From: Scilla litardierei
Lineage: Eukaryota; Streptophyta; Magnoliopsida; Asparagales; Asparagaceae
Direction: 5' to 3'
DNA: 64,000 nt
Assembly: GCA_030789695.1 (NCBI GenBank)
Contig: CM061140.1
Location: 82,832,422 to 82,896,421, forward strand
A program made the translations under genes and the position numbers. Of this stretch, positions 24,257-58,233 are shown piece after piece (position 1 is the stretch's first letter; the number at the start of each line of letters is the position of its first letter). The notes under the pieces were generated by a model. That model was given only the letters and a program-made list of their open reading frames with translations. It had not been told where the DNA came from and made no database searches.

Positions 24257-24264
24257 TATATATA
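24257..24264 (+). promoter_or_regulatory. TATA box of the CHR-A LTR
   Basis: TATATATA in CCTTTATATATAGC, followed by AGGGTTT-rich and C-rich leader sequence. The 3' LTR equivalent is at 32209-32216. Confidence 0.5.
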
Positions 24265-26259: not shown

Positions 26260-26418
26260 ATGTCTGGTACCGAGACAGAGTTTGCAGTCGAGGAGATCGT
26301 ACCTGCAAACTTGGACCAGGAGTACGTTACACAGGAGTACGAACCGGACGAGGACCAGTCATGGAGTTCTTTGCCTATCGCTGACTTGGAGTTCCAGTTT
26401 CCTAGTTTGGGTGTGTAG
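26260..26418 (+). CDS. Short acidic ORF in the CHR-A LTR leader
   Basis: 52 codons starting MSGTETEFAVEEIV and rich in Asp/Glu. Its ATG lies in the 3' arm of a conserved hairpin (CCTGACATACAA...TTGTATGTC). The LARD-2 LTR has MSGFELELVAEDD at the equivalent place (59995-60036). The CHR-B LTR has an acidic frame with ACG instead of ATG (40771-40875). In the CHR-A 3' LTR the frame has a TAG. Whether it is translated is unknown; it could act as an upstream ORF. Confidence 0.35.
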   Translation: MSGTETEFAVEEIVPANLDQEYVTQEYEPDEDQSWSSLPIADLEFQFPSLGV

Positions 26419-26834
26419 CACCATTTTACTTTCATGTCTAGGTTGGGTGCGTAGCACTAGTAGTTTCCTTTTGTTGAAGCCATGCTGAAGCTTCTTTATT
26501 AGACTTTCCATTGTACTGATGGATATTATCTTAATGAATGAATGAATGCTGTTTCTTTTAAGTACTATTATTCTTCTAAACTTTAAATGCAAGAACATGT
26601 ACTTCATTTGGTGTGCCTCTACAGATGCTTATTGGGTCCGAGCTTCACAGCTCCGGCCCATGTGGACCTTAGTTACGTCCTCACCCCTGTATTATGGGAA
26701 GAGGAGCGTGACAGGTTTTTGTGGTGGCCCATGCAGGTCCAAGCAAAAAGTTTGGAACGATAAAAGTACTCGCATTCATTTAATATCCGGTTTAACATGT
26801 GCAAATTCTAAATTGGGTTTTCCTTGTCAACAGG

Positions 26835-27987: not shown

Positions 27988-28109
27988 GTAATCTTTTAGA
28001 ACTAGTCCTTCTTATTATAGTATAGTTCATATTTGTTTGCATGTGTTTGTATGACCTTGCTGGTTAGATTACTGACCCATGTTGACCTTAGTTATTATCT
28101 TTATCTTAG
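27988..28109 (+). other. Spliceosomal intron 1 of CHR-A (gag/protease border, 122 nt)
   Basis: Donor T|GTAATC and acceptor TTATCTTAG|GC. Removal joins GTC ATT GCA T to GC ATC ATC TTA in frame, leading into protease. Unspliced, the Gag frame stops at 28023-28025. T-rich. Position and phase are the same as in CHR-B. Confidence 0.75.
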
Positions 28110-31540: not shown

Positions 31541-31552
31541 AGGTAGGTAGGA
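31541..31552 (+). other. Polypurine tract of CHR-A
   Basis: AGGTAGGTAGGA directly before TGTAACGG of the 3' LTR. Compare AGTTGGGGAGGA in CHR-B. Confidence 0.65.
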
Positions 31553-34500
31553 TGTAACGGATAGTGTTTTCTATTTGCATGTTAGTCATTTTACTCTCCT
31601 TGTCTTACATTTTTTGGGCACCATTATTTTTTAATGTGTCTGTATTTCTTTTCTAGCTTAGCGTATTTATTTCTACGTACTCGGAGTAACTATGTTCCCC
31701 ATACGTGATAGCTATTAATAATTTATTTTTAACCATAATATTTCATATCAAAATTAAATTTCTTTTTAAATTCAAATAGATTCCTAAATTGGAGATAAGA
31801 CTTTTGCCCATTCTCCTTAATCTCCAAATCCCTCCCTTATTGCTCTTTAACTTCTTTTGAATCTTTCCATGTCAACCCAAATTTTGAAATATTTCCTCCT
31901 AATCTCTAACCCTATTTCTTTCTTAGTGCTGGCCGACACCTTTGAAAGTTTTCGCATGTACATTTCTCCCAAGGGATGGCCATGCATGCACTCCCCTATA
32001 TTCTTATAAAACAAAATATAGGTTGATAATAAAAAATCTTAGCCTACCCTAGTCTTTCTTCACTCTTCATATATAACCTGAGTTATCAACCCTAGGCTGC
32101 ATGCTCTCAGTCGCACCTACAAGGAGCCCAAGCCCCTTTGTTTTCAAACCCTACTTCTCTCTCTATATAGCTAACCTAACCCTATTCTATCCCCCTCTCT
32201 CCTACCTTTATATATATCAACCTAGGCCTATTTGTTTGGCAGCCGAAACCTTAGAGGACCTAGGGTTTACATGTGTTCTGAGCCGCACAAAAGAAGAGCA
32301 GTATCTTCTTCTTTTTGTTTCTCTTCCATCAAACCCTTTTCCTCTATCTTCTTCCCTAACCAAAACCCTAGAGCTCCTCTTGCTGCCCTCTCTTCCCCCC
32401 ATCTACACGCAACACATCCGACCACCACCTCACAGCCAAGCCCGACCACAGAACCGCCGGCCTCCACAAACAAACAGCACCCATGCAACACCACACCCGC
32501 CGGCCCTCTACACCGACAGCCCCTCCACACGTCCGGCCACCACACCCCCGTGCGTGCATCAACAGGCCGCAACCCCCCAGATCCGACCACCACCTCCTCC
32601 ACATACAGTCCCATTTTTCGGGTAGTCCACTCCCTGCCGTGCCACCCCACAACAGGCCGGTTCTCTCCCCCTCTCTTCAGTCCTCACGGAAGCTTCCGCC
32701 GGCCACCCCCCTTGGGCATGTCGTCGACCTCCTCCCCTTCGAGTACTCACGCGCGACCTTCAAGTGCCTTGGCCTTCACCGTACACCCGGTCGACATGCG
32801 CCCAAACTCTGTAGGCCACACACCCCGATGTTGTTTCCCCTCGCTGCCGCAAGCCGCCAAGCTCGCTGTCGCAAGTTCCTCTTGCTGCTGCCCCTTCGTG
32901 GCCGCAAGTTGATGCTGCCGTCACTCTCGCCTTGTCACTTCGCTACGCTACCCGCAGCCGAGGTGATCCCGACGAGCCTCCTTACTGTGCTACCCGCAGT
33001 CGAGGAACTGGAGTCGTGATGTGAACCGTTGTTGCCTTCAGATCCGACATCAGACTCATGCGTGTGCGTCATAATAGGTTGGTGACCCTACTCATAGCAA
33101 CCCACACTTTACGCCAGTGAAACTTAACTAAAAATCGACAACTAAACATTTAATTTACGTTTACACTCCTTTAAACTGTTGTAAAAATCTAGACCGATGA
33201 TTAGACATTTTTTGACTATGCACATAGGATAGAATCGTCGAATAGGTTGAACGTTCGAACAACTTGACACGGAATTGTTAGGATAGCCACGTTCAACTTA
33301 GAAAACAAACCATAATAGGACTTTCTAAAACTGGACCTGACACAGTCCCCTTAAATTTATTACATCGAACCGTAACCGACACGCTACCCGTGACGTGACG
33401 CTCCCTACAGATGCACTTCTCGCCATTTCAGGCAAGTGTGTTCACTTGGTAGTTACGGCCACGTTTTAGGCCAGTGCTTCCTTAATTTGTAAATTGTTGA
33501 ACAAGAGAACTAAACGTGAAATGATAGCGTCTGGTACATCCTCACAGCAGCCTAGCCTTGACGACGAAGTTTAGGTATAAACTGCTATAACCGCCATGCT
33601 AAGAACTATTTGTGTGTGTGGACCCCATAGAACATACATTTCCTTGTCTTGCCATGTAACATCGTTCTTGAAATGTTTTGCATAACTTGCGGGTAATAGG
33701 ACACTCTCCAAGATAGAGAGAGTGATCCCTTGTATGGATACACAACCTGCGGGCACTATGGCACTCTCCAAGATAGAGAGAGTGATCCCTTGTACGGATA
33801 CATAGCCTGCGGGCAATAGGGCACTCACCTAGCAGGGTGAGTGATCCCTTGTACAGACTTGTCTTGAGCACTTGGGTGGGGTAGGGTTGAGCGGTTGCAT
33901 GGTTTAAGGGAGTTGGCCACCCTCTAACTGTAAGGCGTGAACCCTCTTGACACACACGTCTTGTTTCGTCTTGTCATATAGCCGGCAGCACACGCTATGA
34001 CCTTGGTTATGTCATGTTTACTTTCTTGTACAGTCTTTACTTTCCTACCATGCTATAAAATGTCATGTTGTTGAAATCTTATAACTTGTCATGTAAAGAA
34101 CATGTCAATATCTGTCTTTAAATTACATACACCTTACAGTAGAGTTTTCTTACCTTGACTTATAGACTCTGCCTGATATACAACTCCTTTTCTCTTGGGT
34201 GTTTGTATGTCAGGTACCGAGACAGAGTTTGCAGACGAGGAGATCATACCTGCAGACTTAGACTAGGAGTACGTTACACAGGAGTACAAACTGGACGAGG
34301 ACCAGTCATAGACTTCTTTGCATGTCGTCGACTTGGAGTTCCAGTTTCCTAGTTTGGGTGCGTAGCACCATTTTACTTTCCTGTCTAGGTTGGGTGCGTA
34401 GCACCAGTAGTTTCCTTTTGTTGAAGCCATGCTGAAGCTTCTTTATTAGACTTTCCATTGTACTGCTGGATATTATCTTAATGAATGAATGAATGTTGTT

Positions 34501-34659
34501 TCTTTTAAGTACTATTATTCTTCTGAACTTTAAATGCAAGAACATGTACTCGTTTGGTGTACCTCTACAGACACTAATTGGGTCCGAGCTTCACAGCTCC
34601 GGCCCATGCGGACTTTAGTCACGTCCTCGCCCCCGTATTATGGGAAGAGGTGCGTGACA
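31553..34659 (+). repeat. CHR-A 3' LTR (3107 bp)
   Basis: Matches 23601-26713 with scattered substitutions. Followed by the target duplication AAACA. Confidence 0.95.
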
Positions 34660-38158: not shown

Positions 38159-38621
38159 TGTAACGGTCGGTTTCTGAATGTGCTATCTTTGTGCACGTGC
38201 TCTTGGTCGTGCACGTGTTTATTTTTTACTCTACTTGTTTTGGAACATTATTGTGTGATATGTCGTTGTGACCCTCTCTGAGAGTACTACAATTGTGGTG
38301 TTGGCTTGCAACATCATTTCACGGGTTGTTCTCCCACGAATTGACTTTTTCTGAAGAGACGTCGCGTTTCTCGCTTTTGGCACGAGACGTTTTTATTTTT
38401 AATTTCGTTTTTCGTCATCGAAATTATGATCCGTTCCCTCTGAATTCTTTCTCTTGTCGTCCCGGTCGCCCCGGTATTTTTTTTATAATTTTTGGGCTCT
38501 GTTTGAGCTATGTACACGGTTAGACCCAATTTATTACAATTTTAACCCTAACAATTTAACCCTAAAATTAACCATAGATCTAACTAAATGGCAGCCCCAC
38601 GATTAGACCCCTCCTCCTACT

Positions 38622-38646
38622 CACGTGGGCCCCACCTCTATAAGTA
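38622..38646 (+). promoter_or_regulatory. G-box, TCP-type site and TATA box of the CHR-B LTR
   Basis: CACGTG at 38622-38627 overlaps GTGGGCCCCAC (38625-38635, a TCP-type GGNCCCAC site), with TATAAGTA at 38639-38646. The same cluster is in the 3' LTR (TATA at 55723-55730). Confidence 0.6.
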
Positions 38647-39735
38647 AAACCTAGGGTTGCGTTATTTTTTTTTCACAGCAAACGTTTTTTTCCGCAGCCG
38701 GCCCTAGCGCTCAAACCCTCACCCATGCAAAACCCATCTTCTCATCGACCTCACCCACACCGGAGGCCGCTGCCGCCGCCGATCATCTCCGGCAGCCTCC
38801 CCCGACTCCCCTCTCTCGCCTGCGACCCCGTACGCCGCCCCTCGCCGCCGCTATAGCCGTTGATCCACCGGAAAACATGCACAGCAGCAGCAGCAGCCTG
38901 CAACGGCCGCCGCCGCCGCTGCCCCTCGCCGCCGCCGTGGATCACCCTCTGCCCCCTCTCGCCGTTGACAGCGACCACAGGCCGCAGATCCACTGAAAAC
39001 AGTGCGTTTGCTCGCTGTTTTGCGTATTTGGCGTCTTCCTGACGCACGATCTCGCCGTTGTCTCTCGTTGTGGGAGTCATCCGACAGCCTCATGCATCCT
39101 CTAAGGGCGTCTTCCGACGTCACGAGCATCACTTACGACTCTCGACGTCGTAGGCGTAGCGTACGACGAACCGTTCATCCCGAGTTGTTGTTACGGTTTC
39201 CCGGAAGCCGTAGAACGCCTTTCCGACGCCCCTAGCCCGCTGTCCACACTCTCTGTCCACTACCAGAGCGTGTCTGGCTACGCTGCCCGTAGCCGAGACG
39301 CCGCTAGAAGACGATCCGTAGCCGTGCTAATCAGATCGGTCGCCGTTCAGACTCTACTTCCCGTTCGCACCAAACCCCGGAGAGGTTAGTTCCCGAAACT
39401 CGTAGCGCAACCCAAACCGTAGCCAAAACTGAAACCTAATTAAAAACGGCAACTTAACTCATTAAATTTAATTTTTGCTCTTTTAAAACGATATGGAACC
39501 ATAGACCGACGATCGGACTTTTTGACTGTGCACATAGGATAGAATCGTTGGATAGGCTGATCGGACAACTCGACTCGTGACTGTTAGGGTAGCCACGCTC
39601 AACCTAGAAATGAACTTAAATAGGAATTTTCTAAAATCGCGACCTGACACCGTCGCCGTGACTGTTTCAGACGGACTACCGCGGACGCGACGACTGGATG
39701 AGACGCCCCGGACAGACGACCCCCACGCCACCGCA

Positions 39736-40963
39736 GGCAAGTGTACCCACTTGCGTTTTTGACGCGTCTTGGTCTTAAATTGTTAGAACTGTTAGACTGT
39801 GAGTGTTTAGATTCCGGACGTGAAATGATAGCGTCTGGGTCACCCTGACGACTTAGACTTGACGACAAAGTCTAAGTCTGGCGAACAACAACTTATGACA
39901 CTTTAGGATTATCTTGTGTGTGCGTGCGTGTGGACACCCTAGAATAACTCTCCCGTACACTGGTCGTGTCTTGTCACCGTTATACACACTGGTCGTGTCT
40001 TGTCACCGTGTTACAAAAAGCCTTCGGGCGTTTCAGATGCTCTCCTTTCGGGAGTGATCTCCGTGTTACAAAAAGCCTTCGGGCGTTTCAGATGCTCTCC
40101 TTGCAGGAGTGATCTCCGTGTTACAAAAAGCCTTCGGGCGTTTCAGATGCTCTCCTTGCGGGAGTGATCTCCGTGTTACAAAAAGCCTTCGGGCATTTCA
40201 GATGCTTCCGGAGCGGAAGTGATCTCCGTGTTACAAAAAGCCTTCAGGCGTTTCAGATGCTCTCCTTGCGGGAGTGATCTCCGTGTTACAAAAAGCCTTC
40301 GGGCGTTTCAGATGCTCTCCTTGCGGGAGTGATCTCCGTGTTACAAAAAGCCTTCGGGCGTTTCGGGCGTTTCAGGTGCTTCCCTAGCGGAAGTGATCTC
40401 TGTACTTCTTGTCCTGAGTTCTGGGGTTTGGGGTAGGGTTGAGCGTGCGCACGGGGAGAGGGTCTGATCCCCCTCAACCCGTAAGGCGTGAACCCTTCGT
40501 GTCGTGTCGTGTCGTGTCGTGTACTACTTGTCTTGTCTGTCTTCGTCTTGTCCTGACACCTTTAGGTTAGTCCCGTAGTCGGTAGCACACGCTACGACTA
40601 TTGTCTGCTACGTTTTACTTTCCTGCTACGTTACTTCTCTTGTACTTGTTGTAACCCCAGCATGTTAATCAACCAGTAAAACGATGTTTAATAGTTCAGT
40701 ACACTTGCAGTAGAGTCTGACTTTTTATTGTAGACTTTACCTGACGTACAGTTCCTTTCTTTGGTGCTGTACGTCAGGTGTCGAGCCAGAGTACGACGAC
40801 CAGACCGAGCTACCAGAGGACGTAGAGCTGGAGGACGTCGATCATGAGTACGTCCCCGAGGACGATCAGAGTTAGAGATCCCCACTGCTGACCCGGAGGT
40901 TCCACTTTAGTTGTTGGGTGCGTAGCACCTTTTGTTTTCCTGTCTAGGTTGGGTGCTTGCACC
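39736..40963 (+). other. Conserved structured leader block in the CHR-B LTR
   Basis: In order: GCAAGTG/CACTTGC hairpin (39736); TGAAATGATAGC (39821); CTTAGACTT-GACGACA-AAGTCTAAG (39852); tandem hairpins (40006-40399); GGGTAGGGTTGAGCG, hairpin GAGGG/CCCTC, GTAAGGCGTGAACCC (40431-40495); GTAGCACACGCTAC (40582); CCTGACGTACAG/CTGTACGTCAGG (40740-40778); GGTGCGTAGCACC and GGTGCTTGCACC (40917-40963). Equivalents occur in the same order in CHR-A (25490-26460), LARD-2 (59170-60155) and, reversed, LARD-1 (41690-42700). Stems vary but remain paired. Confidence 0.7.
40006..40399 (+). repeat. 55-bp tandem hairpin repeat, 7 units (5' LTR of CHR-B)
   Basis: Units start at 40006, 40061, 40116, 40171, 40226, 40281 and 40336, each CCGTGTTACAAAAAGCC... 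with a hairpin and GTGATCT. The unit at 40171 ends in a changed but still paired stem (CTTCC...GGAAG instead of CTCC...GGAG). The last unit carries an extra GGGCGTTTC. Confidence 0.93.
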
Positions 40964-41340
40964 GGTAGTTTCCTTTTCTGCAGTTGTAGCCCTACGGGCG
41001 TTTTGACTCTCAGTACTTTGGATATTTATTTTGGAATAAAATGATTGTCTTTCTTTTTCGTACTTTTATTGTGCTGTACTAACATGCAGGGACCTGTACC
41101 TTCGACTTGGTGTACCACACAGACGCTTATTGGGTCCGGGCTTCTCGCCCCGGCCTAAGCGGGCCTTAGTCACGATTCGCCCCCGTTGTTTTGGGAGGCG
41201 GGACGTGACAGGTTTTAGTGGTGGCCCATGCAGGTCCCACCCCATTCTTTCTGCAAGTACAGAACAATAGGAGTCAGGACATTCATTTTATGATATCCAG
41301 TAATCGTATGAGTCTAATCTCTGTATTTCTTGACAATAGG

Positions 41341-41422
41341 ATGGCAGGACGACGCGTGACCCGATCTGGGAACTCAGGCGATGGAGTTCCGGAGGACCAG
41401 AGCGGAGACTTCCGTCAGTTTC
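41341..41422 (+). pseudogene. gag: CHR-B Gag, first 27 codons
   Basis: ATG at 41341, after an acceptor-like TTGACAATAG. Reads MAGRRVTRSGNSGDG to GDFRQF, then is cut by LARD-1. Continues at 50577. The MAGRRVTR start is shared with the LARD-2 stub. Confidence 0.85.
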
Positions 41423-44331
41423 TGTCACGCCCCGCTTCCCAAAATATGGAGGCGAAGCGTGAGAAGGTCCGCTCAGAACTGAAGCTGCAAAGCTGCAAGT
41501 CCGATAAGCGTCAATCAAATTTAAAACTGCAGGCCCTTGCAACGCGAACGAAACAAAGATAATAATAATGAAATGAGACAAAAGAAGCATCTCAGAATAT
41601 CCATAAAAATAAGTTTCCAACATCACAGAAAAACCACCAAGCTAAAAGTAAGAGACTAAAGGCCCAAACATGGCCAACAAAAGTACAAAGTACAACGACG
41701 GTGCTACGCACCAACAAAACTAACAAAAGGCCTAAAACAACATAAAGCTCAACAAAACTCAAAGCAAGGTCACCGGTGTCCACCAAAATCCTCCTGGCAA
41801 TCATGGACTCAGACTCAGCGTCAGCGACTCATCACGTACACAGCAACGATCTCTGGCTCAGGGTCTAACATGTGACACCCAAAGAGAAAGGGGCACATGT
41901 CAGCAAGTCTGGAAGACTTGTGCAAGTGAAACTGAAAGTACAAGTAAGAGCAACCTAGCAGTTCTAGCATGATGCAATGACATGGCAGTTTAAGTATGAG
42001 TGCAGCAGGTAAAGAAAACAACAAGTAGCTAGCATGGCATGGCAAGTGTGGCAAGACTAATAACATTTACAAGGATTTCTCTAGTCACGTTTTCATGTCA
42101 TTTGCAGAGTTTACGCCTTACAGCTGAAATGACTTTCTTTCACACTGATTGGCCGCTTAACTCCGCCCCACCCAGAGTTTACGCCTTACAGCTGCAGTTG
42201 CTGATCAGGCAGACTCCCAGCTGATTGGCCGCTTAACTCTTACCCCATCCCACGTGTATCGAGCCAGGGCTTACCCCCGAACGGTAATGCTCGCTTCTGG
42301 ATCACGAGCCAGGAAGTGTTTTTAACAAGTATGGCGTAGGGGTGCACCTAGCCAGGACAAGCAAGTACAAGTATGTAGCGTGTGCTACGAATGCAATATT
42401 CAACTTGGATGACATGTAGAATGCAATGCATGGCAGTTAAAGTGCGTACAGATAAGGAAAGTAAACGTGACCAGTTTAGTATGCATGAACATCAAGTTTA
42501 AAGGGTGGATCTAGCTTCGTTGTCAAGCTAGATCAATTAGGTGACGGATCTAGTTTCGTTGTCAAACTAGATCAAATAGGCGTCTAGCCAGCTATCATTT
42601 CACTGGCTAGTCTCTTTTAACGCTAAAAGCAAGGAAGTGGCCTAAAAACATGGCCCTACACAAGAGTTGGCAAGTTTCACTTGCCTGCAAATACGACGTC
42701 TGAGCACACCGTCCAATGAGTCCAAAAAAACACAATTATCTACGTGCACAAGTCCACCGGCCTAAAGTCCATATTATTAATCTTGATTAGTGAATTTAAA
42801 ACATTTAAAATACTTTGAAAATACTGATTTTAGTCTTGATTAGCATGCAATTGGGTTGGGGGTCCTAGGGGTGCAAAACGTTACCTCAACACGACGCGAA
42901 AGCTACACCGGCGTCGGGTAGCGACGCCGGGGGTTGGAATAATAGAACGCGCTCCAAGTCCTGATTCCAATATAGTTTCCTCGCTGGAAAGTTCAGAGCA
43001 TCAACCCGGGCGACGATTTCAGATTCCAAAGCTCGCACGTGCGACGACGGGCTACGACGTGCGACGACGTCGTACGCGGCAAGTCGTCGAAGAGAACACT
43101 CCTAGGTGGGGCCCACAGCAGTCCTAGGGGCCTTTGGGGAACCCACAATAACTCTGGAGAACTTGGGGGGCCCACGGAGGCAAGTGGTGCGACGGATGCG
43201 GGGTTGCGACGAGTGACTCTCGGTCGTACCCCTCCAATGCGGGAGAATTCCTCGGTCGCTGCGAGAGAACGGGGCTGTGCAGCAGCGGGGGTCGGTCACA
43301 GCGGCGGGTGCGGGCGTGGGCTTCGGTCAGACCGATAGGGACCGTCGGTCGTGCGCTTGGGATGCGGGGTTGCAGCGTTTGCAACGTTGCAACGTTCGGG
43401 CGCTCGGTCACAGCGGCCGCTTCCTTCGGTCGGGCACGGAGCGGAGCGGGGGCGACAGAGCGGGCGACAAGCGGGGGTCGGTGCGGAGCGGGGGCGACCG
43501 GTCAGAGCGGGCCAAGCGATCGGTCAGGTCGATGGAACGGAGCGGGGGGTGCTGCAGCGTGCGGAGCGGCTTGGGTGCGGGCGGGGGCTTCGGTCGGAGC
43601 GGGCGAACGGGGCGATTTTCCTCGGTCGTGCGGGGGCTGAACGTCGCAACGTTGCGACGATTCGTCGCAACGTCCAAAATGACTTTGGAAGAGGCTAGGG
43701 CTAATTTCTTTGGAAAAATAGGACTTGCTAGGGGTTGCTTATATAGTGTAGGTGGGTTGACTTGGTCTATGGCTAAATCTAATAGGATTAGAATTCAAAA
43801 AGATTTGAAATTTGAATTTAAACTTCTCCAACCCAATCTAGGATTTGACCAGGTCCAAATGAGCTGGAAATTGGCTCAAAAATTCTTTAAAACGTTTTAA
43901 ACTCAAATAAATTTTATTTGGCCGAAATTAATTTAAAAATAAATTATTAAAAATAATATAAAACTTGTAAAAATTATAAAAGTGGTCCAAATGAACTCCA
44001 AAAATTATAAAATAAATATCGTTGTGATCGTGGCGACGAATGTGAGCTAACTAAGAAGACGGATCTCAAATTCGACGTCGGACGACGAAACTAAAAATAG
44101 AAACGTCTCCCGTCAAAGTGAAAATCGTCACGTCTCATCGAGTGAGTTTAAATTGTGGGAAAACGACTCGAGAAGTGTCGTTCCAGGATAGTGCCACTAT
44201 TTAATACTCTCAGAGACGTTCGCAACGGCATATCACACAAAAGTGTTCGCAAACAACCATAGTCTAAAACAAACACGTGCACGGCCAAAAGCACGTGCAC
44301 GAAAAGCGTACGACGAAAAGTGGTCATTACA
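41423..44331 (-). repeat. LARD-1 3' LTR (complete)
   Basis: Minus strand TGTAATGACCACTTTTCG at 44331 to GGGGCGTGACA at 41423. Holds two tandem hairpins GATCTAGCTT/AAGCTAGATC and GATCTAGTTT/AAACTAGATC with loop GACAACG on the sense strand (42508-42573) and a duplicated TAAGGCGTAAAC module (42117-42250). GC-rich CGGTCG-laden DNA at 43020-43680 gives long spurious ORFs. Confidence 0.9.
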
Positions 44332-47300
44332 TCCTCCCCACCTTAGAATAAAGTCCGTCCTCAGGACTTTCTAATATAGCTAGTCGCTCTAGTAACTACC
44401 CCAATCAAGTCACTTTATAATTCAAACCAAGTATAGTCATTACAAGTGCTCATATATGCACTAGGTAGTCAAACATTATTACTACCAACACTTATATATT
44501 CACGTACGTATACACTTATACCTATTATAGTCCGTCAACTTCATACATGTTTTTCAATCAGGTATATAAACATACATCCCTTATATAACTGCTACTCACA
44601 ACAGTAGTTCAGATACTTATATAGGATAGTCTCACACTTAGCCAATACAATCATCGCTCTACCTATATGTAGCTACCTATGCACAAGCATCAAGGGTATA
44701 CTACCCCTCTAATATTCATCCATTACCAAGCATCTCAACACATATAGTCACACCATACCATTATTAAATCAAGTTCACTATATCTAATATACATTCACCA
44801 CTACTATAATTTCACAATATATAGTCATTCAAATACACGCAATTAGTTCACCATATATTCACATCACGTACGGTCCTATAACTATATTTACGACACGCCA
44901 CATAGACCATAGTCATCCATACCTATAACTAAGCACATACTTACCCGTGCATGGTGCACTCCCATACACGCTAACATTTCATTTTCATACGCCAATCATA
45001 CCATTATATAACTAGCACACCTACACACCTAGTTTTAGCTAGTACACATACGTTCACACAACAAGTCCTTAGTAAATAACTATACCGCAAGACCGGCACA
45101 AACACTCCTATCACTATACATACATCAAGCATTGCTATATTCAAACTACAACATACATTCAATATACTTAGAGTATACTCACTCAAGCTTGAGTGAGACT
45201 CAATACACATATCAGAATATTCCATATACGTAGCACGACATTCATACTTATACCATATCACTCCAATATTTATACGTCTACCAATACAACCATATACATA
45301 CCATAAGTCATTCACCTAATATCTAGTCAGGTAATATTCACATGGTTAAATCAATCTATATACCATAATAATAATACAGACATCAGCACACGTATAACTA
45401 TAATACACCTCCCTAATACATACGCATTCATCGTATAGTCACACACATGTAACATATATTCACACCATAGCCTACTACCTATAATTAGTATACTAACACA
45501 TCCACACATACATAATTAAGATGTGCAATGGTCGTGTATACCTCACGGTATGCACGCATGCGACATCCCGCGAAAGCAAACAATACCAATCAAAATTATA
45601 AACCCTACTACCTATATATATATCACCTATATACTCATGCAACGAAACATAACTACTTACATATAAGCACATATTATACCTACCTACGAGCACATACTCA
45701 TACGTAATAATATATGGGTCATTCAATAGGCCTACTTACTTAACTATACATACACTTATTATTATCACACCTAGCACTCACATAGCTTTACCCAATCATT
45801 TTATTTCAACCATTATATGTATCTCTTACTACATACACAACTTAGATATTCCAACGCTAATTCAAATATACACAAGCATCCCTAGTATAGTATATCTAAC
45901 CACTCACAAGTCTATACATTCTAGCACACAAACAACTTCATAATATCACGAATAACTCCAAGTACATATATATATCACACAATAGGCAAGCATCAATATA
46001 CTATGGGGGTACACTCATTCAAGCCCACGTACACAACTTAGGTACGTGCACAACGACACCTCACAAGGGTCCAAGGGTCTACTAACAACTAAGGGTTGAC
46101 ACAGCCATTGACGGTCCCTAAGGCCTAAGCAATAAAGAGAGATCGAGGGCGAGACGAGGGAAGGATCGACAAGCACGAGTTCAGATAGGACGAATACGAG
46201 GAGACGGCTTGGTTGGACGAAACATTGACTCAAAGGTGAGGTTTAGGTTGAGGGAAAAAGGAGATGTAGTGATGCTTGAATAGAGTACAGAAAAGCAACT
46301 AGGATAAATAGCATAAGCTAAAATACGCAAAATTGAAAAACGGTTGTACTTTAAAATCCTCATCTGAGAAGAAATGTTTGGGAATCGATAAAACGAGTTG
46401 TTCAAAATAAGTTTGAGTTGAATATTCATAATAAGAGAAAATGTTTTATTAGCTTATCAAAAATCATTAAGAAAAGAAGTAAAATCATTTACACGAATAT
46501 TAAGGACATGGTTTAGAAAATTTTAAACGTCAGTAATTTAATATAATGTTGTCAAAAAGTTTTTGAAAGTTAAAGAATGAAATCAAATAACGGAAGAATT
46601 TAAACTCATGTTAAATGCTTACAAAACTTTTAGGCTATGGAAAGTTGAAAATAATCAATTTGAAACTACTTTTAGAGAACCAGAGTTTGCCAAAAATGAG
46701 AAACTGATTTTCACAAGGTTCTTAATATACGAGCACAATAAGTCTGGTACGGGTATAAAAATAATTGAAAGTATGTATGGTGCACGGAAAAATAATAATA
46801 ATGACTTAGTGTAAGAATTTTCAAGATCGAATCGCAAATCCTTAAAATCAAATCAGGGAGGGTCTAAAGCAGGAAGAGGTTATGAAAATAGTAGTTTTTG
46901 CAAAAATTTGGAATAGTGAGTACGACGAGTAAAAATCAACTTGCTGAAATCTGAAATTCCATGTGACATGAAAAGTATATTAAAAGTAAACACGAAGTAT
47001 TATTCAAATGGCATAAATAAGAGGGAAAATTATAAATCGAACTGAGCAAAATAAAAGTACGGTTCAGAATAAAATTTAATATATGAAAAGACGACATGAG
47101 TACGAAAACATAGGCTGGGAAAATATTGTCAGCTAGAGTTCAAAATTCCGACGAACGTTTTAAAAATTTAAATCAATGAAGAAGTATGAAGTATAAGTAT
47201 ATTAAAATTTTGAACAAATTTAAACATAGTGAAAGAGGAAATCGAAAGATACTTTTGGAAGATTCAAGATTGTAACGGAAAGGTTTGAAAATTGACGACG

Positions 47301-47804
47301 ATCGTCATGGGGCGATCTCGTGATTCGAGGCAAGGAAATTGGTCAGGTGATCAAAACATTCGTATGCCTAGGATATGACTCAGGAGAGGCTACGGGAAAC
47401 TCCTACGGTCGACCAACTAAAGATTAAAAACTAAGCGCTAAGACTTCTAAAGGTTAGACGGTAAAGAAATGCGTTCAGCTTGGTCCGAAATCGATGACCC
47501 CAAGCGAACGACAAAAGGAAATTCTAGAAGTCTAATATGGTCAGAGGTAGACAAGGACCACTAAGGTAACTCCTACGACGATCAAGTCAATTGCTAGAAG
47601 GGAGTCTAACTAACAATCAGGGGCCTCTAACTATCAAGCACAGACGTTTAACTAAGTCTTCTAATCACCTAGTGTCCTAAAAACGACTAGACTCAGGGCT
47701 TCTGACTCGGATGTTGCAATTTATTTAATGGACATTCTGTTATTATCGTTGTTTCGTTAATTCGCAATTGCAAGACTGGACCTGCATGGGCCACCAACAA
47801 AACC
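44332..47804 (-). other. LARD-1 internal region, non-coding
   Basis: PPT AAGGTGGGGAGGA (minus strand) at the 44332 end; leader GGTTTTGTTGGTGGCCC at the 47804 end. Between them no gag or pol is recognisable. On the sense strand 44400-46000 is poor in C and rich in TATGTRTG-like runs. Blocks conserved with LARD-2 include CACTCAAGCTTGAGTG (45180-45195), AGTGCACCATGCACGGGTAA and a stretch around 47460-47560. Confidence 0.8.
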
Positions 47805-50577
47805 TGTCACGCCCCCGCTTCCCAAAATATGGAGGCGAAGCGTGAGAAGGTCCGCTCAGAACTGAAGCTACAAAGCTGCAAGTCCGATAAGCGTCAATCA
47901 AATTTAAAACTGCAGGCCCCTTGCAACGCGAACGAAACAAAGATAATAATAATGAAATGAGACAAAAGAAGCATCTCAGAATATCCATAAAATAAGTTTC
48001 CAACATCACAGAAAAACCACCAAGCTAAAAGTAAGAGACTAAAGGCCCAAACATGGCCAACAAAAGTACAAAGTACAACGACGGTGCTAACGCACCAACA
48101 AAACTAACAAAAGGCCTAAAACAACATAAAGCTCAACAAAACTCAAAGCAAGGTCACCGGTGTCCACCAAAATCCTCCTGGCAATCATGGACTCAGACTC
48201 AGCGTCAGCGACTCATCACGTACACAGCAACGATCTCTGGCTCAGGGTCTAACATGTGACACCCAAAGAGAAAGGGGCACATGTCAGCAAGTCTGGAAGA
48301 CTTGTGCAAGTGAAACTGAAAGTACAAGTAAGAGCAACCTAGCAGTTCTAGCATGATGCAATGACATGGCAGTTTAAGTATGAGTGCAGCAGGTAAAGAA
48401 AACAACAAGTAGCTAGCATGGCATGGCAAGTGTGGCAAGACTAATAACATTTACAAGGATTTCTCTAGTCACGTTTTCATGTCATTTGCAGAGTTTACGC
48501 CTTACAGCTGAAATGACTTTCTTTCACACTGATTGGCCGCTTAACTCCGCCCCACCCAGAGTTTACGCCTTACAGCTGCAGTTGCTGATCAGGCAGACTC
48601 CCAGCTGATTGGCCGCTTAACTCTTACCCCATCCCACGTGTATCGAGCCAGGGCCTTACCCCCGAACGGTAATGCTCGCTTCTGGATCACGAGCCAGGAA
48701 GTGTTTTTAACAAGTATGGCGTAGGGGTGCACCTAGCCAGGACAAGCAAGTACAAGTATGTAGCGTGTGCTACGAATGCAATATTCAACTTGGATGACAT
48801 GTAAAATGCAATGCATGGCAGTTAAAAGTGCGTACAGATAAGGAAAGTAAACGTGACAGTTTAGTATGCATGAACATCAAGTTTAAAGGGTGGATCTAGC
48901 TTCGTTGTCAAGCTAGATCAATTAGGTGACGGATCTAGTTTCGTTGTCAAACTAGATCAAATAGGCGTCTAGCCAGCTATCATTTCACTGGCTAGTCTCT
49001 TTTACGCTAAAAGCAAGGAAGTGGCCTAAAAACATGGCCCTACACAAGAGTTGGCAAGTTTCACTTGCCTGCAAATACGACGTCTGAGCACACCGTCCAA
49101 TGAGTCCAAAAAACACAATTATCTACGTGCACAAGTCCACCGCCTAAAGTCCATATTATTAATCTTGATTAGTGAATTTAAAACATTTAAAATACTTTGA
49201 AAATACTGATTTTAGTCTTGATTAGCATGCAATTGGGTTGGGGGTCCTAGGGGTGCAAAACGTTACCTCAACACGACGCGAAAGCTACACCGGGCGTCGG
49301 GTAGCGACGCCGGGGGGTTGGAATAATAGAACGCGCTCCAAGTCCTGATTCCAATATAGTTTCCTCGCTGGAAAGTTCAGAGCATCAACCCGGGCGACGA
49401 TTTCAGATTCCAAAGCTCGCACGTGCGACGACGGGCTACGACGTGCGACGACGTCGTACGCGGCAAGTCGTCGAAGAGAACACTCCTAGGTGGGGGCCCA
49501 CAGCAGTCCTAGGGGCCTTTGGGGAACCCACAATAACTCTGGAGAACTTGGGGGGCCCACGGAGGCAAGTGGTGCGACGGATGCGGGGTTGCGACGAGTG
49601 ACTCTCGGTCGTACCCCTCCAATGCGGGAGAATTCCTCGGTCGCTGCGAGAGAACGGGGCTGTGCAGCAGCGGGGGTCGGTCACAGCGGCGGGTGCGGGC
49701 GTGGGCTTCGGTCAGACCGATAGGGACCGTCGGTCGTGCGCTTGGGATGCGGGGTTGCAGCGTTGCAACGTTGCAACGTTCGGGCGCTCGGTCACAGCGG
49801 CCGCTTCCTTCGGTCGGGCACGGAGCGGAGGCGGGGCGACAGAGCGGACGGCAAGCGGGGGTCGGTGCGGAGCGGGGGCGACCGGTCAGAGCGGGCCAAG
49901 CGATCGGTCAGGTCGATGGAACGGAGCGGGGGTGCTGCAGCGTGCGGAGCGGCTTGGGTGCGGGCGGGGGCTTCGGTCGGAGCGGGCGAACGGGGCGATT
50001 TTCCTCGGTCGTGCGGGGGCTGAACGTCGCAACGTTGCGACGATTCGTCGCAACGTCCAAAATGACTTTGGAAGAGGCTAGGGCTAATTTCTTTGGAAAA
50101 ATAGGACTTGCTAGGGGTTGCTTATATAGTGTAGGTGGGTTGACTTGGTCTAGGGCTAAATCTAATAGGATTAGAATTCAAAAAGATTTGAAATTTGAAT
50201 TTAAACTTCTCCAACCCAATCTAGGATTTGACCAGGTCCAAATGAGCTGGAAATTGGCTCAAAAATTCTTTAAAACGTTTTAAACTCAAATAAATTTTAT
50301 TTGGCCGAAATTAATTTAAAAATAAATTATTAAAAATAATATAAAACTTGTAAAAATTATAAAAGTGGTCAAATGAACTCCAAAAATTATAAAATAAATA
50401 TCGTTGTGATCGTGGCGACGAATGTGAGCTAACTAAGAAGACGGATCTCAAATTCGACGTCGGACGACGAAACTAAAAATAGAAACGTCTCCCCGTCAAA
50501 GTGAAAATCGTCACGTCTCATCGAGTGAGTTTAAATTGTGGGGAAAACGACTCGAGAAGTGTCGTTCCAGGATAGTG
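47805..50577 (-). repeat. LARD-1 5' LTR, 138 bp missing at its outer end
   Basis: Follows the other LTR closely to CCAGGATAGTG, then breaks at 50577 into CHR-B Gag. The missing part, present at 44194-44331, includes the terminal TG. Confidence 0.9.
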
Positions 50578-51669
50578 ACCAGAGCGGAGACTTCCGTCAG
50601 TTTCTGGGTGTGATGAGAGAGATGCTGGAGGTGCAGCATCAGTTGGTTCAGCAGTCGCAGCGTGCTGCTCAGGCTCCCCCAGTTGCACCACCACCGCCTC
50701 CGCCTGCCCCACGAGCTGCTCCAGGAGTGAAGCAGTTCAATGAACTCCAGCCGAGGAATTTTTCGGGGAAAGAGGGACCCCTAGCTGCTGACGAGTGGAT
50801 CCAGAGCACGGAGGAGAAGTTAGTTACTGCGAAGATTCCTGATGATACCTGAGTGGAGATAGCGAAGATGCAGCTAATGGAGAATGCAAGGAACTGGTGG
50901 CGCATCGAGGAGAGGCGTCTGGAGAAGCCAGTGGAGTGGAAGACCTTCCGCTCGATGTTTAAGGATAAGTATTTTACCAAGTCTGCGAGGAGGGAGCTGT
51001 TGAGCAAGTTTATAGATCTGAAGCAAGGGGATATGACTGTCGAGGAGTATGAAGCTGAGTTCGAGATGCTGAGCCGTTTTGCTCCGCATATGGTGAGGAA
51101 GGAGGAGAAGCGAGCTGATCGCTTTCGTCAGGGACTGCGTCCGAAGATTCAGGCTTCTATGTCTTCGGCGAGTTTCTCGACTATGAGGGAGGTGCTAGAT
51201 GCTGCGAAGAATCATGAGCTTATTTCGCTCCTACCTGACCCTCCAGCTGATAAGGGGAAGCGTCCCATGGAGTAGTACCGGCCACCTGCTAGGCCGACGA
51301 TGAGGCCAGTCCAGACAGTGCCTTTCAAGAGGCCAGGAGCACCTATGCAGATTCAGAGTAAGGGACCATGCCATTACTGCGGGAAGACAGGACATGTTCA
51401 GAAGGATTGTAGGAGGAAGCTGGGACTGTGCTTAGTTTGTGGAGATGCATCTCATGCTGCAAAGGATTGTCCGAGAGCCCGTAAAGCTATGGTTGGAGCG
51501 CCAGCCCCGCTGCACATGAGAGCACCTGCCCCAGTTCAGAGAGGAGCTGCTGTACGTGGGCCACCCATGGCGCCACAGAGGCAGATGTTTCAGAGGGCAG
51601 TGCAACCCCAGAGGCCGGCGTACACCATGACCGCTGTTGAGACTGAGCAGCTAGATGGAGTTATTGCAG
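50577..51669 (+). pseudogene. gag: CHR-B Gag, main part (exon 1)
   Basis: Reads GDFRQFLGVMREMLEVQHQ, then the capsid core (ARNWWRIEE, VEWKTFRSMFKDKYF, EYEAEFEMLSRFAPHM, FRQGLRPKIQASM). The knuckle CHYCGKTGHVQKDC is intact and a second CLVCGDASHAAKDC follows. Nonsense codons: TGA at 50850-50852 and TAG at 51273-51275 (the latter Gln in CHR-A). The frame ends into intron 1 with LDGVIAG. Without splicing it adds ILRIQTSFS and stops at 51699-51701. Confidence 0.9.
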
Positions 51670-51782
51670 GTATACTTCGAATCCAGACTTCATTTTCGTA
51701 ATATAGATCTTAATGGTTAGCTATGTTTGTTTGCCTTGTTTGCTAAAGTAGTGTTGTTGACCTTAGTCCTTTTACCTCTTAG
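51670..51782 (+). other. Spliceosomal intron 1 of CHR-B (gag/protease border, 113 nt)
   Basis: GCAG|GTATACTTCG ... TTTTACCTCTTAG|GCACCATT. T-rich with candidate branch sites. Removal makes codon GGC and joins DGVIAG to TILVSSHP in frame, directly before the protease ALFDSGAS. Retention stops translation after Gag. Shared with CHR-A at the same phase. Confidence 0.8.
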
Positions 51783-54215
51783 GCACCATTCTTGTGTCCT
51801 CTCACCCTGCCTTGGCTTTGTTTGACTCTGGTGCATCCATGTGCATCTTATCCCGGAGGTTCATAACAAAGCACTCCATTCCCACCCACACACTTCCTAA
51901 GTGTTGGGACATCACCACAGGGAACGGAGTGGTGACGGTGAACTTGGGTTGTCAAACAATTCCTTTAGTGGTCAGTGGACACGAACTTTTTGCAGACTTC
52001 ATCGTCCACGACCTGCCGCATTTCGATGTCGTACTTGGCATTGATTGGTTGGGAGACTTCCACGCCTCGATCGACTGCCACAGTAAGAGGGTTGTATTCC
52101 GGATTCCAGGCCATCAGGAGTTCGAGTTCCGCAGCAGAGATGAGTCGCTTGGGCCCATCAGGTTTCGGGCCAAGCCGGAGGTGCCGATTGTTGCAGCCAT
52201 GCAGATGGAGATGGAGATCGAGCGACCAGCAGTCGTCAGAGACTTCGACGACGTCTTCCCGGAGGATATATCGGGTCTGCCACCTGACAGAGCTCTAGAA
52301 TTTGGTATTGATCTTATGCCAGGAGCGCAGCCGATATCGAAGGCACCGTATCGGATGGCTCCCGCTGAGCTCGAGGAGCTGCGTAAGCAGTTAGACGAGT
52401 TGCTGCAGAAGGGTTTCATCCACCCTAGTGTGTCACCGTGGGGTGCACCTGTTTTGCTTGTGAAGAAGAAGGATAGGTCCCGCAGGATGTGCGTGGACTA
52501 TCGAGGGCTGAATGCTGTCACAGTGAAGAATAAGTATCCGCTGCCGCGCATCGACGATATATTTGATCAGCTTGGAGGTTCGAGAGTCTTCTCGAAGTTG
52601 GACTTGAGGAGCGGGTACCATCAGTTGAAGGTGAAGAAGGATGACGTTCCGAAGACAGCCTTTCGGACGAAGTACGGACATTATGAGTTCGTGGTCATGC
52701 CGTTTGGCGTGACCAATGCGCCAGCTGTGTTCATGAATTTGATGAATTTAATAGTCTACGACTTCCTGGACAAGTTTGTGGTCATCTTCATTGATGACAT
52801 TCTTATTTATTCGAAGTCTGAGGAGGAGCACAGCTGTCATCTGAGGACAGTACTAGAGACGCTGAGGCGACACAAGCTTTATGCCAAGTATAGTAAGTGC
52901 GAGTTCTGGCTGGACAGGGTCACGTTTTTGGGACACGTGGTGTCTGGTGATGGCATATCAGTAGATCCGGAGAAGGTCGGAGCAGTCAGAGATTGGCCGA
53001 CTCGGCAGTCAGCGTCAGATATCAGGAGCTTTCTTGGCTTAGCAGGCTATTATCGGCGGTTCATCAAGGATTTCTCGAAGATTGCGGAGCCGATGACGAA
53101 GCTGACGAGGAAGGATGTGGAGTTCCTTTGGTCTGATGCTTGTGAGGAGGCCTTCAGTATCTTGAAGGTGAGGTTGACCACAGCACCAGTTCTGGCTATA
53201 CCGGATCGGAGCGGAGGCTTCGAAGTGTATTGTGATGCATCAGGGAAGGGCCTGGGATGCATCTTGCATCAGCATGGCCACGTGGTCGCGTACGCTTCTT
53301 GTCAGTTGAGGACACATGAGAAGAATTACCCGACGCATGATCTAGAGTTGGCAGCGGTGATTTTTGCACTGAAGATTTGGAGGCACTTCTTGCTGAGTGA
53401 GAGCGTGAAGATCTTCACCGACCACAAGAGCTTGAAGTACATCTTTACGCAGAAAGAGCTCAACATGCGTCAGAGACAATGGTTAGAGCTCATGGCTGAC
53501 TACGAGATTGATTTGCAGTATCACCCAGGGAAGGTGAACGTAGTACCAGATGCCTTGAGTAGACTTCCTACTGTGATGATGCATACCGCCGACTGGAGGA
53601 TTCAGCAGGAGCTGAAGGAGATGGATTTGGAGGTTGTCCTACCTGGTGTAGTTCATTCATTCATGAATCTGCAGATTCAGTCCACGATCGTGGATCGGAT
53701 CAAGGCAGCACAGGCAGGAGATCCGAAGCTGCAGAGGATCAGGAGGCAGGTTGAAGCTGGACTACGGACGGAGTTCGTGATTCATGAGGATGGTTCACTG
53801 CGGTACGGCAGCAGACTCTGTGTACCTGCAGGTGATGTTCGCGAGGAGCTGCTGAGCGAGGCTCATAGCTCACTGTATTCTATACATCCTGGAGGCACCA
53901 AGATGTATAAGGACCTCCGTCTGAATTATTGGTGGATTGGCATGAAGAGGAGTGTGGCACAGAGCGTTGCCAAGTGTTTGATATGCCAACAGGTGAAGGC
54001 TGAGCACCATCGTACTGCTGGGTTGCTGTAACCGCTTCCTATTCCGGAGTGGAAGTGGCAACATATTACGATGGACTTCGTGACTGGTTTACCTCGGACC
54101 CTGAGGCAGAACGACGCAGTTTGGGTGATCGTGGATCGATTGACCAAGTCTGCGCATTTTATCCCATTCCGAGTGGGGCCAGTCTACGGAAGCTTTGGCG
54201 AGGAAATATTTGGAG
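51783..54215 (+). pseudogene. pol: CHR-B protease, RT, RNase H, integrase N-terminus (exon 2)
   Basis: Counting from the Met at 51794: protease D11-S-G-A; RT with [18 protein letters not shown] and FIDD (D334, D335); RNase H with [26 protein letters not shown]; integrase zinc finger [10 protein letters not shown]...[12 protein letters not shown] at 54029-54031 (Gln expected in GLLQPLPIPEW) and a one-base gain near 54178 are the only lesions. First integrase Asp in TMDFVTGLP. The exon ends LARKYLE. All catalytic residues checked are present, so this is a recently dead copy. Confidence 0.92.
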
Positions 54216-54295
54216 GTAAAATTTTCGTTTCTACTTTTACTTCTATTTTGATTTTTCTCCTTGAAGTAGTCGTGATGTCGACCGTGTACGTGCAG
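54216..54295 (+). other. Spliceosomal intron 2 of CHR-B (inside integrase, 80 nt)
   Basis: TTG GAG|GTAAAATTTTCG ... GTGTACGTGCAG|GAG ATT GTA. Joins LARKYLE to EIVRLHGVP. Very T-rich. 80 nt plus the upstream one-base insertion sum to a multiple of three, so a naive ORF reads through it. Confidence 0.78.
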
Positions 54296-55201
54296 GAGAT
54301 TGTACGCTTACATGGAGTCCCTGTGAGCATTGTGTCTGACCGAGACACGAGGTTCACATCTCAGTTCTGGAGAAGTCTGCAGGAGAATTTGGGTACGAGT
54401 CTGAGTTTCAGCACGGCGTACCACCCGCAGACTGATGGCCAGTCCGAGAGGACTATTCAGATACTGGAGGATATGCTGCGAGCTTGTACGCTCGATTTGA
54501 AGGGATCATGGGAGGACCATCTTCACTTGGTGGAGTTTTCTTATAACAACAGCTATCAGGCGAGCATTGGCATGGCACCGTTTGCTGCCTTATATGGAAG
54601 GAAGTGTCGATCGCCATTGAGCTGGGATGACATCGGAGATCGGGAGCTGTTGGGTCCAGAAATGATAGTGGAAGCTGTGGATGTCGTGAGGGACATCAGG
54701 GAGAAGCTCAGAGTTGCACATGATCGCTTCAAGCATTGGGCTGATGCCAAGAGGAGACCGTTGGAGTTCCAGCCTGGAGATCACGCCTTCCTGAAGATTT
54801 CTCCGAACCGCGGAGTTATTCGTTTTGGGAAGAAGGGAAAGCTGAGCCCGAGGTATATTGGACCGTTTGATGTGCTAGAACGTGTGGGAGCTGTGGCCTA
54901 CCGCCTTGCTCTGCCACCATCTTTGGAGGGTGTTCACGATGTATTCCACATATCCCAGTTACGTCAGTACGTCAGTGATCCATCACACACTGTGGATTTC
55001 TCAGAGATTACGGTTCGTCCGGACCTGACGTATGACCAGCAGCCTGTGCAGATCCTGGACCGTCGACAGAAGCAGTTGAGGAATAAGATAGTCGACCTGG
55101 TGAGAGTGATGTGGCGTCACGGATCACCTGGAGAGTCCACCTGGGAGCGCGAAGATGATATGAGAGAGCGTTTCCCGCATCTTTTCCCGAGCAGTGCTTG
55201 A
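54296..55201 (+). pseudogene. pol: CHR-B integrase core and chromodomain (exon 3)
   Basis: IVSDRDTRFTSQFW gives the second catalytic Asp and AYHPQTDGQSERTIQ the Glu. The GPF/Y-like module KLSPRYIGPFDVLERVG is followed by a chromodomain-like end (QPVQILDRRQKQLRNK, GSPGESTWEREDDMRERFPHLF) of Tekay type. No stop inside; dead only through upstream lesions. Confidence 0.9.
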
Positions 55202-55242: not shown

Positions 55243-58228
55243 TGTAACGGTCGGTTTCTGAATGTGCTATCTTTGTGCACGTGCTCTTGGTCGTGCACGT
55301 GTTTATTTTTGACTCTACTTGTTTTGGAACATTATTGTGTGATATGTCGTTGTGACCCTCTCTGAGAGTACTACAATTGTGGTGTTGGCTTGCAACATCA
55401 TTTCACGGGTTGTTCTCCCACGAATTGACTTTTTCTGAAGAGACGTCGCGTTTCTCGCTTTTGGCTCGAGACGTTTTTATTTTTAATTTTGTTTTTCGTC
55501 ATCAAAATTATGATCTGTTCCCTCTGAATTCTTTATCTTGTCGTCCCGGTTGCCCCGGTATTTTTTTTATAATTTTTGGGCTCCGTTTGAGCTATGTGCA
55601 CAGTTAGACCCAATTTATTACAATTTTAACCCTAACAATTTAACCCTAAAATTAACCCTAGATCTAACTAAATGGCAGCCCCACGATTAGACCCCTCCTC
55701 CTACTCACGTGGGCCCCACCTCTATAAGTAAAACATAGGGTTGCGTTATTTTTTTTTCACAGCAAACGTTTTTTTCCGCAGCCGGCCCTAGCGCTCAAAC
55801 CCTCACCCACGCAAAACCCATCTTCTCATCGACCTCACCCACGCCGGAGGCCGCTGCCTCCGCCGATCATCTCCGGCAGCCTCCCCCAACTCCCCTCTCT
55901 CGCCTGCGACCCCGTACGCTGCCCCTCGCTGCCGCTACAGCCGTTGATCCGCCGAAAAACATGCACAGCAGCAGCAGCAGCATGCAACGGCCACCGCCGC
56001 CGCTGCCGCCGCCGTGGATCACCCTCTGCCCCCTCTCGCCGTTGACAGCGACCACAGGCCGCAGATCCGCTGAAAAAAATGTGTTTGCTCGCTGTTTTGC
56101 GTATTTGGCGCCGTCCCGACGCGTCGCTACGATCTCGTCGTTGTCTCTCGCTGTGGGAGTCATCCGACAGCCTCCTGCATCCTCTAGTGGCGTCTTCCGA
56201 CGTCACGAGCATCACTTGTGACTCTCGACGTCGTAGGCGTATCGTACGACGAACCGTTCGTCCCGAGTTGTTGTTACGGTTTCCTGGAAACCGTAGAACG
56301 CCTTTTCGACGCCCCTAGCCCGCTGTCCGCACTCTCTGTCCACTACCAGAGCGTGTCTGGCTACGCTGCCCGTAGCCGAGACACCGCTAGAAGACGATCC
56401 ATAGCCGTGCTAATCAGATCGGTCGCCGTTCAGACTCTACTTCCTGTTCGCACCAAACCCCGGAGAGGTTAGTTCCCGAAACTCGTAGCGCAACCCAAAC
56501 CGTAGCCAAAACTGAAACCTAATTAAAAATGGCAACTTAACTCATTAAATTTAATTTCTGCTCTTTTAAAACGATGTGGAACCATAGACCGACGATCGGA
56601 CTTTTTGACTGTGCACATAGGATAGAATCGTCGGATAGGCTGGTCGGACAACTCGACTCGTGACTGTTAGGGTAGCCACGCTCAACCTAGAAATGAACTT
56701 AAATAGGAATTTTCTAAAATCGCGACCTGACACCGTCGTCGTGACTGTTTCAGACAGACTACCGCGGACGCGACGACTGGACGCGACGCCCCGGACAGAC
56801 GACCCCCACGCCACCGCAGGCAAGTGTACCCACTTGCGTTTTTGACGCGTCTTGGTCTTAAATTGTTAGAACTGTTAGACTGTGAGTGTTTAGATTCCGG
56901 ACGTGAAATGATAGCGTCTGGGTCACCCTGACGACTTAGACTTGACGACGAAGTCTAAGTCCGGCGAACAATAACTTGTGACACTTTAGGATTATCTTGT
57001 GTGTGCGTGCGTGTGGACACCCTAGAATAACTCTCCCGTACACTGGTCGTGTCTTGTCACCGTTATACACACTGGTCGTGTCTTGTCACCGTGTTACAAA
57101 AAGCCTTCGGGCGTTTCAGATGCTCTCCTTGCGGGAGTGATCTCCGTGTTACAAAAAGCCTTCGGGCGTTTCAGATGCTCTCCTTGCGGGAGTGATCTCC
57201 GTGTTACAAAAAGCCTTCGGGCGTTTCAGATGCTTCCCGAGCGGAAGTGATCTCCGTGTTACAAAAATCCTTCGGGCGTTTCAGATGCTCTCCTTGCGGG
57301 AGTGATCTCCGTGTTACAAAAAGCCTTCGGGCGTTTCAGATGCTCTCCTTGCGGGAGTGATCTCCGTGTTACAAAAAGCTTTCGGGCGTTTCAGGTGCTT
57401 CACTAGCGGAAGTGATCTATGTACTTCTTGTCCTGAGTTCTGGGGTTTGGGGTAGGGTTGAGCGTGCGCACGGGGAGAGGGTCTGATCCCCCTCAACCCG
57501 TAAGGTGTGAACCCTTCGTGTCGTGTCGTGACGTGTCGTGTCCTACTTGTCTTGTCTGTCTTCGTCTTGTCCTGACACCTTTAGGTTAGTCATGTAGTCG
57601 GTAGCACACGCTACGACTACTGTCTGCTACGTTTTACTTTCCTGCTACGTTACTTCTCTTGTACTTGTTGTAACCCAGCATGCTAATCAACCAGTAAAAC
57701 GATGTTTAATAGTTCAGTACACTTGCAGTAGAGTCTGACTTTTTGTTGTAGACTTTACCTGACGTACAGTTCCTTTCTTTGGTACTGTACGTCAGGTGTC
57801 CAGCCGGAGTACGACGACCAGACCGAGCTACCAGAGGACGTAGAGCCGGAGGACGTCGATCCTGAGAACGTTTCCGAGGACGATCAGAGTTAGAGATCCC
57901 CACTGTTGACCCGGAGGTTCCACTTTAGTTGTTGGGTGCGTAGCACCTTTTGTTTTCCTGTCTAGGTTGGGTGCTTGCACCGGTAGTTTCCTTTTCTGCA
58001 GTTGTAGCCCTACGGGCGTTTAGACTCTTAGTACTTTGGATATTTATTTTGGAATAAAATGATTGTCTTTCTTTTTCGTACTTTTATTGTGTTGTACTAA
58101 CATGCAGTGACCTGTACCTTCGACTTGGTGTACCACACAGACGCTTATTGGGTCCGGGCTTCTCGCCCCGGCCTAAGCGGGCCTTAGTCACGCTTCGCCT
58201 CCGTTGTTTTGGAAGGCGGGGCGTAACA
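55243..58228 (+). repeat. CHR-B 3' LTR (2986 bp)
   Basis: Matches 38159-41210. Ends GGGGCGTAACA, then GAGCC. Confidence 0.95.
57089..57418 (+). repeat. 55-bp tandem hairpin repeat, 6 units (3' LTR of CHR-B)
   Basis: Units at 57089, 57144, 57199, 57254, 57309 and 57364: one fewer than in the 5' LTR. The variant CTTCC...GGAAG stem closes the third unit here. Confidence 0.92.
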
Positions 58229-58233
58229 GAGCC

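Follow-up and report, generated by a model that had tools for sequence, protein, structure and literature searches.

Most groups of plant LTR retrotransposons are described, in the available part of PMC6317226, as having one continuous frame, so that how Gag comes to exceed Pol in them is often unclear. The closest precedent for the locus reported here is Ogre, a Ty3/gypsy element of the Tat lineage known from pea and Medicago, in which an intron lies between the protease and the reverse transcriptase (RT). In the case of BARE1, a Ty1/copia element of barley, a 104-nt U-rich alternative intron with a CAG/GTAT donor is located near the end of gag, and about half of the polyadenylated product is spliced (accessible portion of PMC3735527). 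Spliced transcripts are likewise described for the centromeric chromovirus CRR, and a short Gag RNA generated by splicing for EVADE (PMC3735527 and PMC12786077, each in its accessible portion); as presented there, splicing in CRR takes out rt and gives two ORFs, that in EVADE (the copia shGAG) takes out the protease, and in neither does the removal of an intron join Gag to the protease. Bianca (Ty1/copia) possesses two ORFs with an average gap of 172 bp, but it belongs to a different superfamily and the gap is not termed an intron in the available text of PMC6317226.

The segment considered here differs from the Ogre intron in its position between Gag and the protease, in its length of 107-127 nt and in its presence in chromodomain elements; the Ogre/Tat arrangement with an intron between protease and RT is absent from CHR-B, where a single open frame covers protease and RT. 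The site and the lineage suggest an origin separate from that of the Ogre intron. With BARE1 it shares the letters of the donor, CAG/GTAT being also the usual form in CHR-B, but the logic is reversed: as far as the accessible portion of PMC3735527 goes, spliced BARE1 RNA gives Gag only and unspliced RNA gives Gag-Pol, whereas here Gag would come from the unspliced and Gag-Pol from the spliced RNA. Nor does the unspliced RNA form one continuous gag-pol frame of the BARE1 type, a gag-frame stop being present within the segment in all 120 copies aligned. Searches of an open-access library returned no title or abstract on a chromoviral intron between gag and protease, and PMC3059260 and PMC11728184 contain no intron or splicing terms; the view of the preliminary description of this DNA that none had been described at this place holds for that scope only, subscription journals lying mostly outside it.

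The window, i.e. the whole 64-kb stretch of DNA that was analysed, carries on its plus strand two LTR retrotransposons, CHR-A and CHR-B, each of about 11 kb without nested insertion (Table 1). CHR-B displays the domain order GAG-PROT-RT-RH-INT, which is that of Ty3/gypsy elements and of Tekay/Del chromoviruses, with a chromodomain match (PF00385) of 22.4 bits (E 1.1e-4) that falls under the cutoff of 25.1; the gag of this copy contains two in-frame stops. For CHR-A the domain scan covered the protease and the start of the RT. The name Tekay/Del for the lineage of CHR-A and CHR-B is an assumption on our part, shared with the preliminary description, and the protease tree presented below contains no named Tekay reference. 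The word TGGTATCAGAGC, which we take to be the usual primer-site word of the Tekay/Del clade, is absent from the plus strand of the window; past both 5' LTRs (26714 and 41212 onward) there is instead GGTTTT.GTGGTGGCCCATGCAGGTCC, which differs from the methionine primer-site word expected for this clade. Both CHR-B LTRs contain a 55-nt tandem repeat (39893-40467 and 56976-57550). A nested element further interrupts CHR-B at about 41422-50577; it stands in inverted orientation, its terminal repeats (41422-44193 and 47804-50577) are 99.1% identical and its LTR ends resemble those of CHR-B. The ORF list has no frame of at least 150 aa for its 3.6-kb interior, and it may therefore be non-autonomous.

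Table 1. Coordinates of the CHR-A, CHR-B and CHR-C features in the 64-kb window
Feature	Position	Strand	Remarks
CHR-C equivalent segment	8835-8948	-	114 nt, TTG/GTATTT...CCTTAA/GC, phase 1; acceptor AA; decayed gag and protease flanks
Second CHR-C segment copy	19744-19857	-	within 97.4% direct repeat
CHR-A 5' LTR	23600-26713	+	92.1% identity with its 3' LTR
CHR-A intron-like segment	27988-28109	+	122 nt, phase 1, CAT/GTAATC...ATCTTAG/GC
CHR-A candidate branch-point region TTGACCTTAG (predicted function)	28082-28091	+	kept in 30/40 CHR-A copies
CHR-A protease and start of RT	28110-29062	+	Pfam; frame open from 28076
CHR-A 3' LTR	31552-34659	+	
CHR-B 5' LTR	38159-41211	+	94.4% identity with its 3' LTR
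CHR-B internal stretch ending in gag exon	50579-51669	+	Pfam PF03732, PF19259, PF00098 (Gag, CCHC zinc knuckle)
CHR-B intron-like segment	51670-51782	+	113 nt, phase 1, CAG/GTATAC...CTCTTAG/GC; GT 51670-51671, AG 51781-51782
CHR-B candidate branch-point region TTGACCTTAG (predicted function)	51757-51766	+	kept in 37/40 CHR-B copies
CHR-B protease, RT, RNase H and integrase zinc-binding part	51783-54031	+	ORFs and Pfam
CHR-B rest of integrase and sub-threshold chromodomain match	54032-55201	+	same frame, past a stop
CHR-B 3' LTR	55243-58229	+	

The segments of CHR-B and CHR-A are situated at the same codon and in the same phase, between a V-I-A motif and the start of the protease, and their removal joins Gag to the protease in both, just as the preliminary description had it. 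Its further example, CHR-C, proved to be real, with a GT donor and phase 1, but it lies on the minus strand, its AA acceptor does not represent the rule of its family, and the second copy, being part of a 97.4% direct repeat, is a duplicate and was rejected as an independent witness. The claim that a stop follows 10-13 codons past the donor in all three elements stands for CHR-B (codon 10, at 51699) and CHR-A (codon 12, at 28023), whereas in CHR-C the first gag-frame stop is already at codon 7. The two direct repeats (8569-11416 and 19478-22326) both carry the antisense CHR-C gag/protease fragment, which seems to ride in or beside the terminal repeats of another element; the sequence adjoining the end of the repeat at 8569-11416 is presumably an Athila-like primer-site.

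The T content of the segment is 44-51%, against 17-37% in the 150-nt flanks, in keeping with the U-rich composition of plant introns as quoted in the accessible portion of PMC3735527. In CHR-B the last upstream stop of the pol frame (51764) falls within the segment, the frame being open from 51767, and the first pol-frame ATG (51839) is downstream of the protease active site, as is also the case in the CHR-A copy of the window. The usual donors of the three families (GTATAC, GTAATC and GTATTT) lack the G that the donor consensus has at +5, and would therefore fit a partial or inefficient splicing.

The source genome (3.68 Gb in 7266 contigs) yielded 4096, 3454 and 1026 first-look candidates for CHR-B, CHR-A and CHR-C respectively, and the best-scoring 40 copies per family, including the window's own, were aligned. 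Within these sets the GT is kept in 119/120 copies and the AG in 108/120: in CHR-B 40/40 and 39/40, with a length of 113 nt in 37 copies, 112 in two and 114 in one; in CHR-A likewise 40/40 and 39/40, with lengths of 120-127; and in CHR-C 39/40 and 30/40 (the remaining 10 being without AG), with lengths of 107-123, the CHR-C copies other than the window's pair being 76-81% identical to the query. At the exon-donor junction of CHR-A, CAG/GTAAT is found in 27/40 copies and CAT/GTAAT in 4/40, the copy in the window having T as its last exon base. Sorted by length modulo 3 (0, 1, 2), the segments number 11, 18 and 11 in CHR-A (n=40), 19, 5 and 16 in CHR-C (n=40), and 18, 12 and 57 in the pattern-scan set described below (n=87). 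The lengths thus drift such that the gag-to-pol offset takes all three values, which is incompatible with a programmed frameshift. The segment of CHR-A displays 17 distinct indels, seven of them in at least two copies, versus nine (three shared) and three (none shared) in the 150-nt flanks, a pattern as if the shared ones had been inherited by transposition.

The pol frame is closed within the segment in 40/40 CHR-B, 40/40 CHR-A and 39/40 CHR-C copies. On both exon sides of young CHR-B copies (n=30) second codon positions are the slowest and third positions the fastest, as expected of coding sequence. The codon-position pattern is weak in CHR-A and mixed in CHR-C. The total divergence of the segment is lower than that of the pooled third positions of both exons; it is not significantly lower on transversions, nor in comparison to exon 2 alone, and hence no extra constraint within the segment is claimed.

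Since similarity ranking favours segment-bearing copies, the best-scoring sets cannot prove the rarity of intronless ones. The genome was hence also scanned, with no similarity ranking, with one 14-base word per flank, each word leaving a gap of two bases to the splice site. With a spacer of 105-130 the strict scan recovered 87 places of the CHR-B type, and with a spacer of 0-30 it recovered none, the reversed-pattern control giving 0 in both cases. Though not required by the pattern, the GT is present in 87/87 of these copies and is preceded by AG in 80/87, the lengths being 109-122. A subset of 39/87 starts with GTAA rather than GTAT; these are mostly 117-122 nt long and have a quite different inner sequence between identical 14-base flanks, so that divergence is faster within the segment than at its borders.

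A scan with degenerate words and a 0-30 spacer recovered one match, at C13:56495853-56495884 (L121), which is without exactly the GT...AG segment. This copy is collinear with CHR-B, with an identity of 89.3% upstream, 90.5% downstream and about 82% at the LTR end. Its own two LTRs agree at 99.52% of 3331 aligned positions, and CTGAG, read by eye, flanks it on both outer sides as a 5-bp target duplication; it is thus a young insertion that arose via the ordinary route. The simplest source would be a spliced RNA that served as template of this copy or of its parent. However, this copy is a single one, and the AGG shared by its two edges (2 + 1 bases) makes a deletion by microhomology possible. 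While its internal part is about 90% identical to that of CHR-B, the LTRs differ by about 18-19%, a contrast from which it may be a recombinant or belong to another subfamily.

Protein searches for relatives gave 46 matches in one case and 384 in another, of which the best 120 were used. The protease motif could be aligned in 95 proteins, and their usual reading is V-V/I-T/S/A/E/Q-G leading directly into the protease. In P0001, P0002 and P0004, unrelated residues come first and are followed by L-G or I-G, as would result from an in-frame reading of ..TAG/G, an acceptor-side signature. I ahead of G is no proof by itself, because the contiguous proteins P0102 and P0144 have it too. P0048 is ambiguous, with a stop-free insertion of its own that it reads through. 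A protease tree of 34 rows, comprising 32 hand-picked proteins of the 167, CHR-A and CHR-B (CHR-C was left out), unites P0001, P0002, P0004, P0048, CHR-A and CHR-B with three rows without that end in one clade (99/98). The sister group (84/78) of this clade is formed by P0005, P0007, P0049 and P0050, itself at 100/100, and in the outgroup members P0049 and P0050 Gag runs into the protease unbroken at the same site. The relatives with suggested acceptor-side ends show 55-63% identity in the protease, and the CHR-C protease piece of the window is nearest to P0002. The simplest reading of these relationships would be one intron gain at the base of the 99/98 clade. The viral_contigs scans returned no DNA of relatives from other plants, and a Gag protein query gave one weak match among 7994 scored candidates.

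Conserved GT...AG ends at one codon and in one phase, as in a spliceosomal GT-AG intron, T-richness, gag-frame stops, drift in length, contiguous outgroups and the exact loss in one young copy are the features on which the interpretation is based. They make it very likely that the segment is a spliceosomal intron which a Tekay-like lineage of chromoviruses has gained. Together with the ends shared by three families and the coding flanks in CHR-B, they strongly support the intron proposed in the preliminary description. With a probability of roughly three in four, it would be an intron in the Gag-Pol frame at the Gag/protease border whose splicing switches between Gag alone and Gag-Pol. What counts against this are the single intronless copy with its AGG edges, the stop-free insertion of P0048 within the 99/98 clade, the weak or mixed codon pattern of CHR-A and CHR-C, the transversion comparison with third positions and the 10/40 CHR-C copies without AG.

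LTR elements commonly use recoding between gag and pol, and the segment might accordingly be an unspliced spacer that translation bridges through frameshifting, readthrough of a stop, or reinitiation. All three forms were rejected on account of the closed frames, of an offset that drifts, and of a first pol-frame ATG lying past the active site of the protease in the CHR-A and CHR-B copies of the window; given also the exact GT...AG loss in one copy, such a spacer is extremely improbable. A non-functional relic, that is an insertion which broke gag-pol in copies dependent on intact contiguous partners, would agree with the damage that many copies show elsewhere, such as the two gag stops in the window's CHR-B, and with the existence of one contiguous copy. 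Yet the ends are conserved in three families and suggested in the above relatives, the strict scan found 87 places with the segment versus 0 without it, and both sides of the segment are under coding constraint in CHR-B, all of which renders a relic very improbable.

A real intron might also be constitutively spliced in the RNA that is translated, a separate and never-spliced pool serving as the template, in which case it would aid expression or export and set no ratio. The gag-frame stops soon past the junction, which would make a retained RNA a Gag mRNA, and the usual donors without the consensus G at +5, which would suit partial splicing, both speak against this. On the other hand, BARE1 provides a case of separate RNA pools in a plant retrotransposon (accessible portion of PMC3735527). 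On balance, constitutive splicing appears unlikely, though it merits some consideration.

Returning to splicing as a switch between Gag and Gag-Pol, the unspliced RNA would undergo export and be translated into Gag bearing a short tail, and it would also be the genome, i.e. the template of reverse transcription; translation of a spliced fraction would yield Gag-Pol. The intron would persist if nearly all of the copied RNA were unspliced, and the intronless copy could have arisen by the copying of spliced RNA. That splicing occurs, that it is only partly efficient, that two protein products result and that the unspliced RNA is the template are what we infer here from the sequence, and the earlier proposal that splicing sets the ratio of Gag to Gag-Pol, which agrees with the gag-frame stops and with intronless copies being nearly absent, is to be understood in the same conditional sense. 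More specifically, we are inclined to favor, with some reserve, a scenario in which the lineage gained the intron at an AG/G site inside a formerly continuous gag-pol frame and thereby made the splicing of the host its Gag/Gag-Pol switch; the young intronless insertion would then mean that packaging and copying occasionally involve spliced RNA, and the share of intronless copies would gauge the strictness with which the element selects unspliced genomes.

If this is true, these elements would achieve an excess of Gag over Pol via splicing as in Ogre, but in another lineage and at another border. They would also represent an intron gain in a high-copy mobile element, whose copies would record the evolution of the ends and the length of the intron, and the rare intronless insertion would record the entry of spliced RNA into the cycle.
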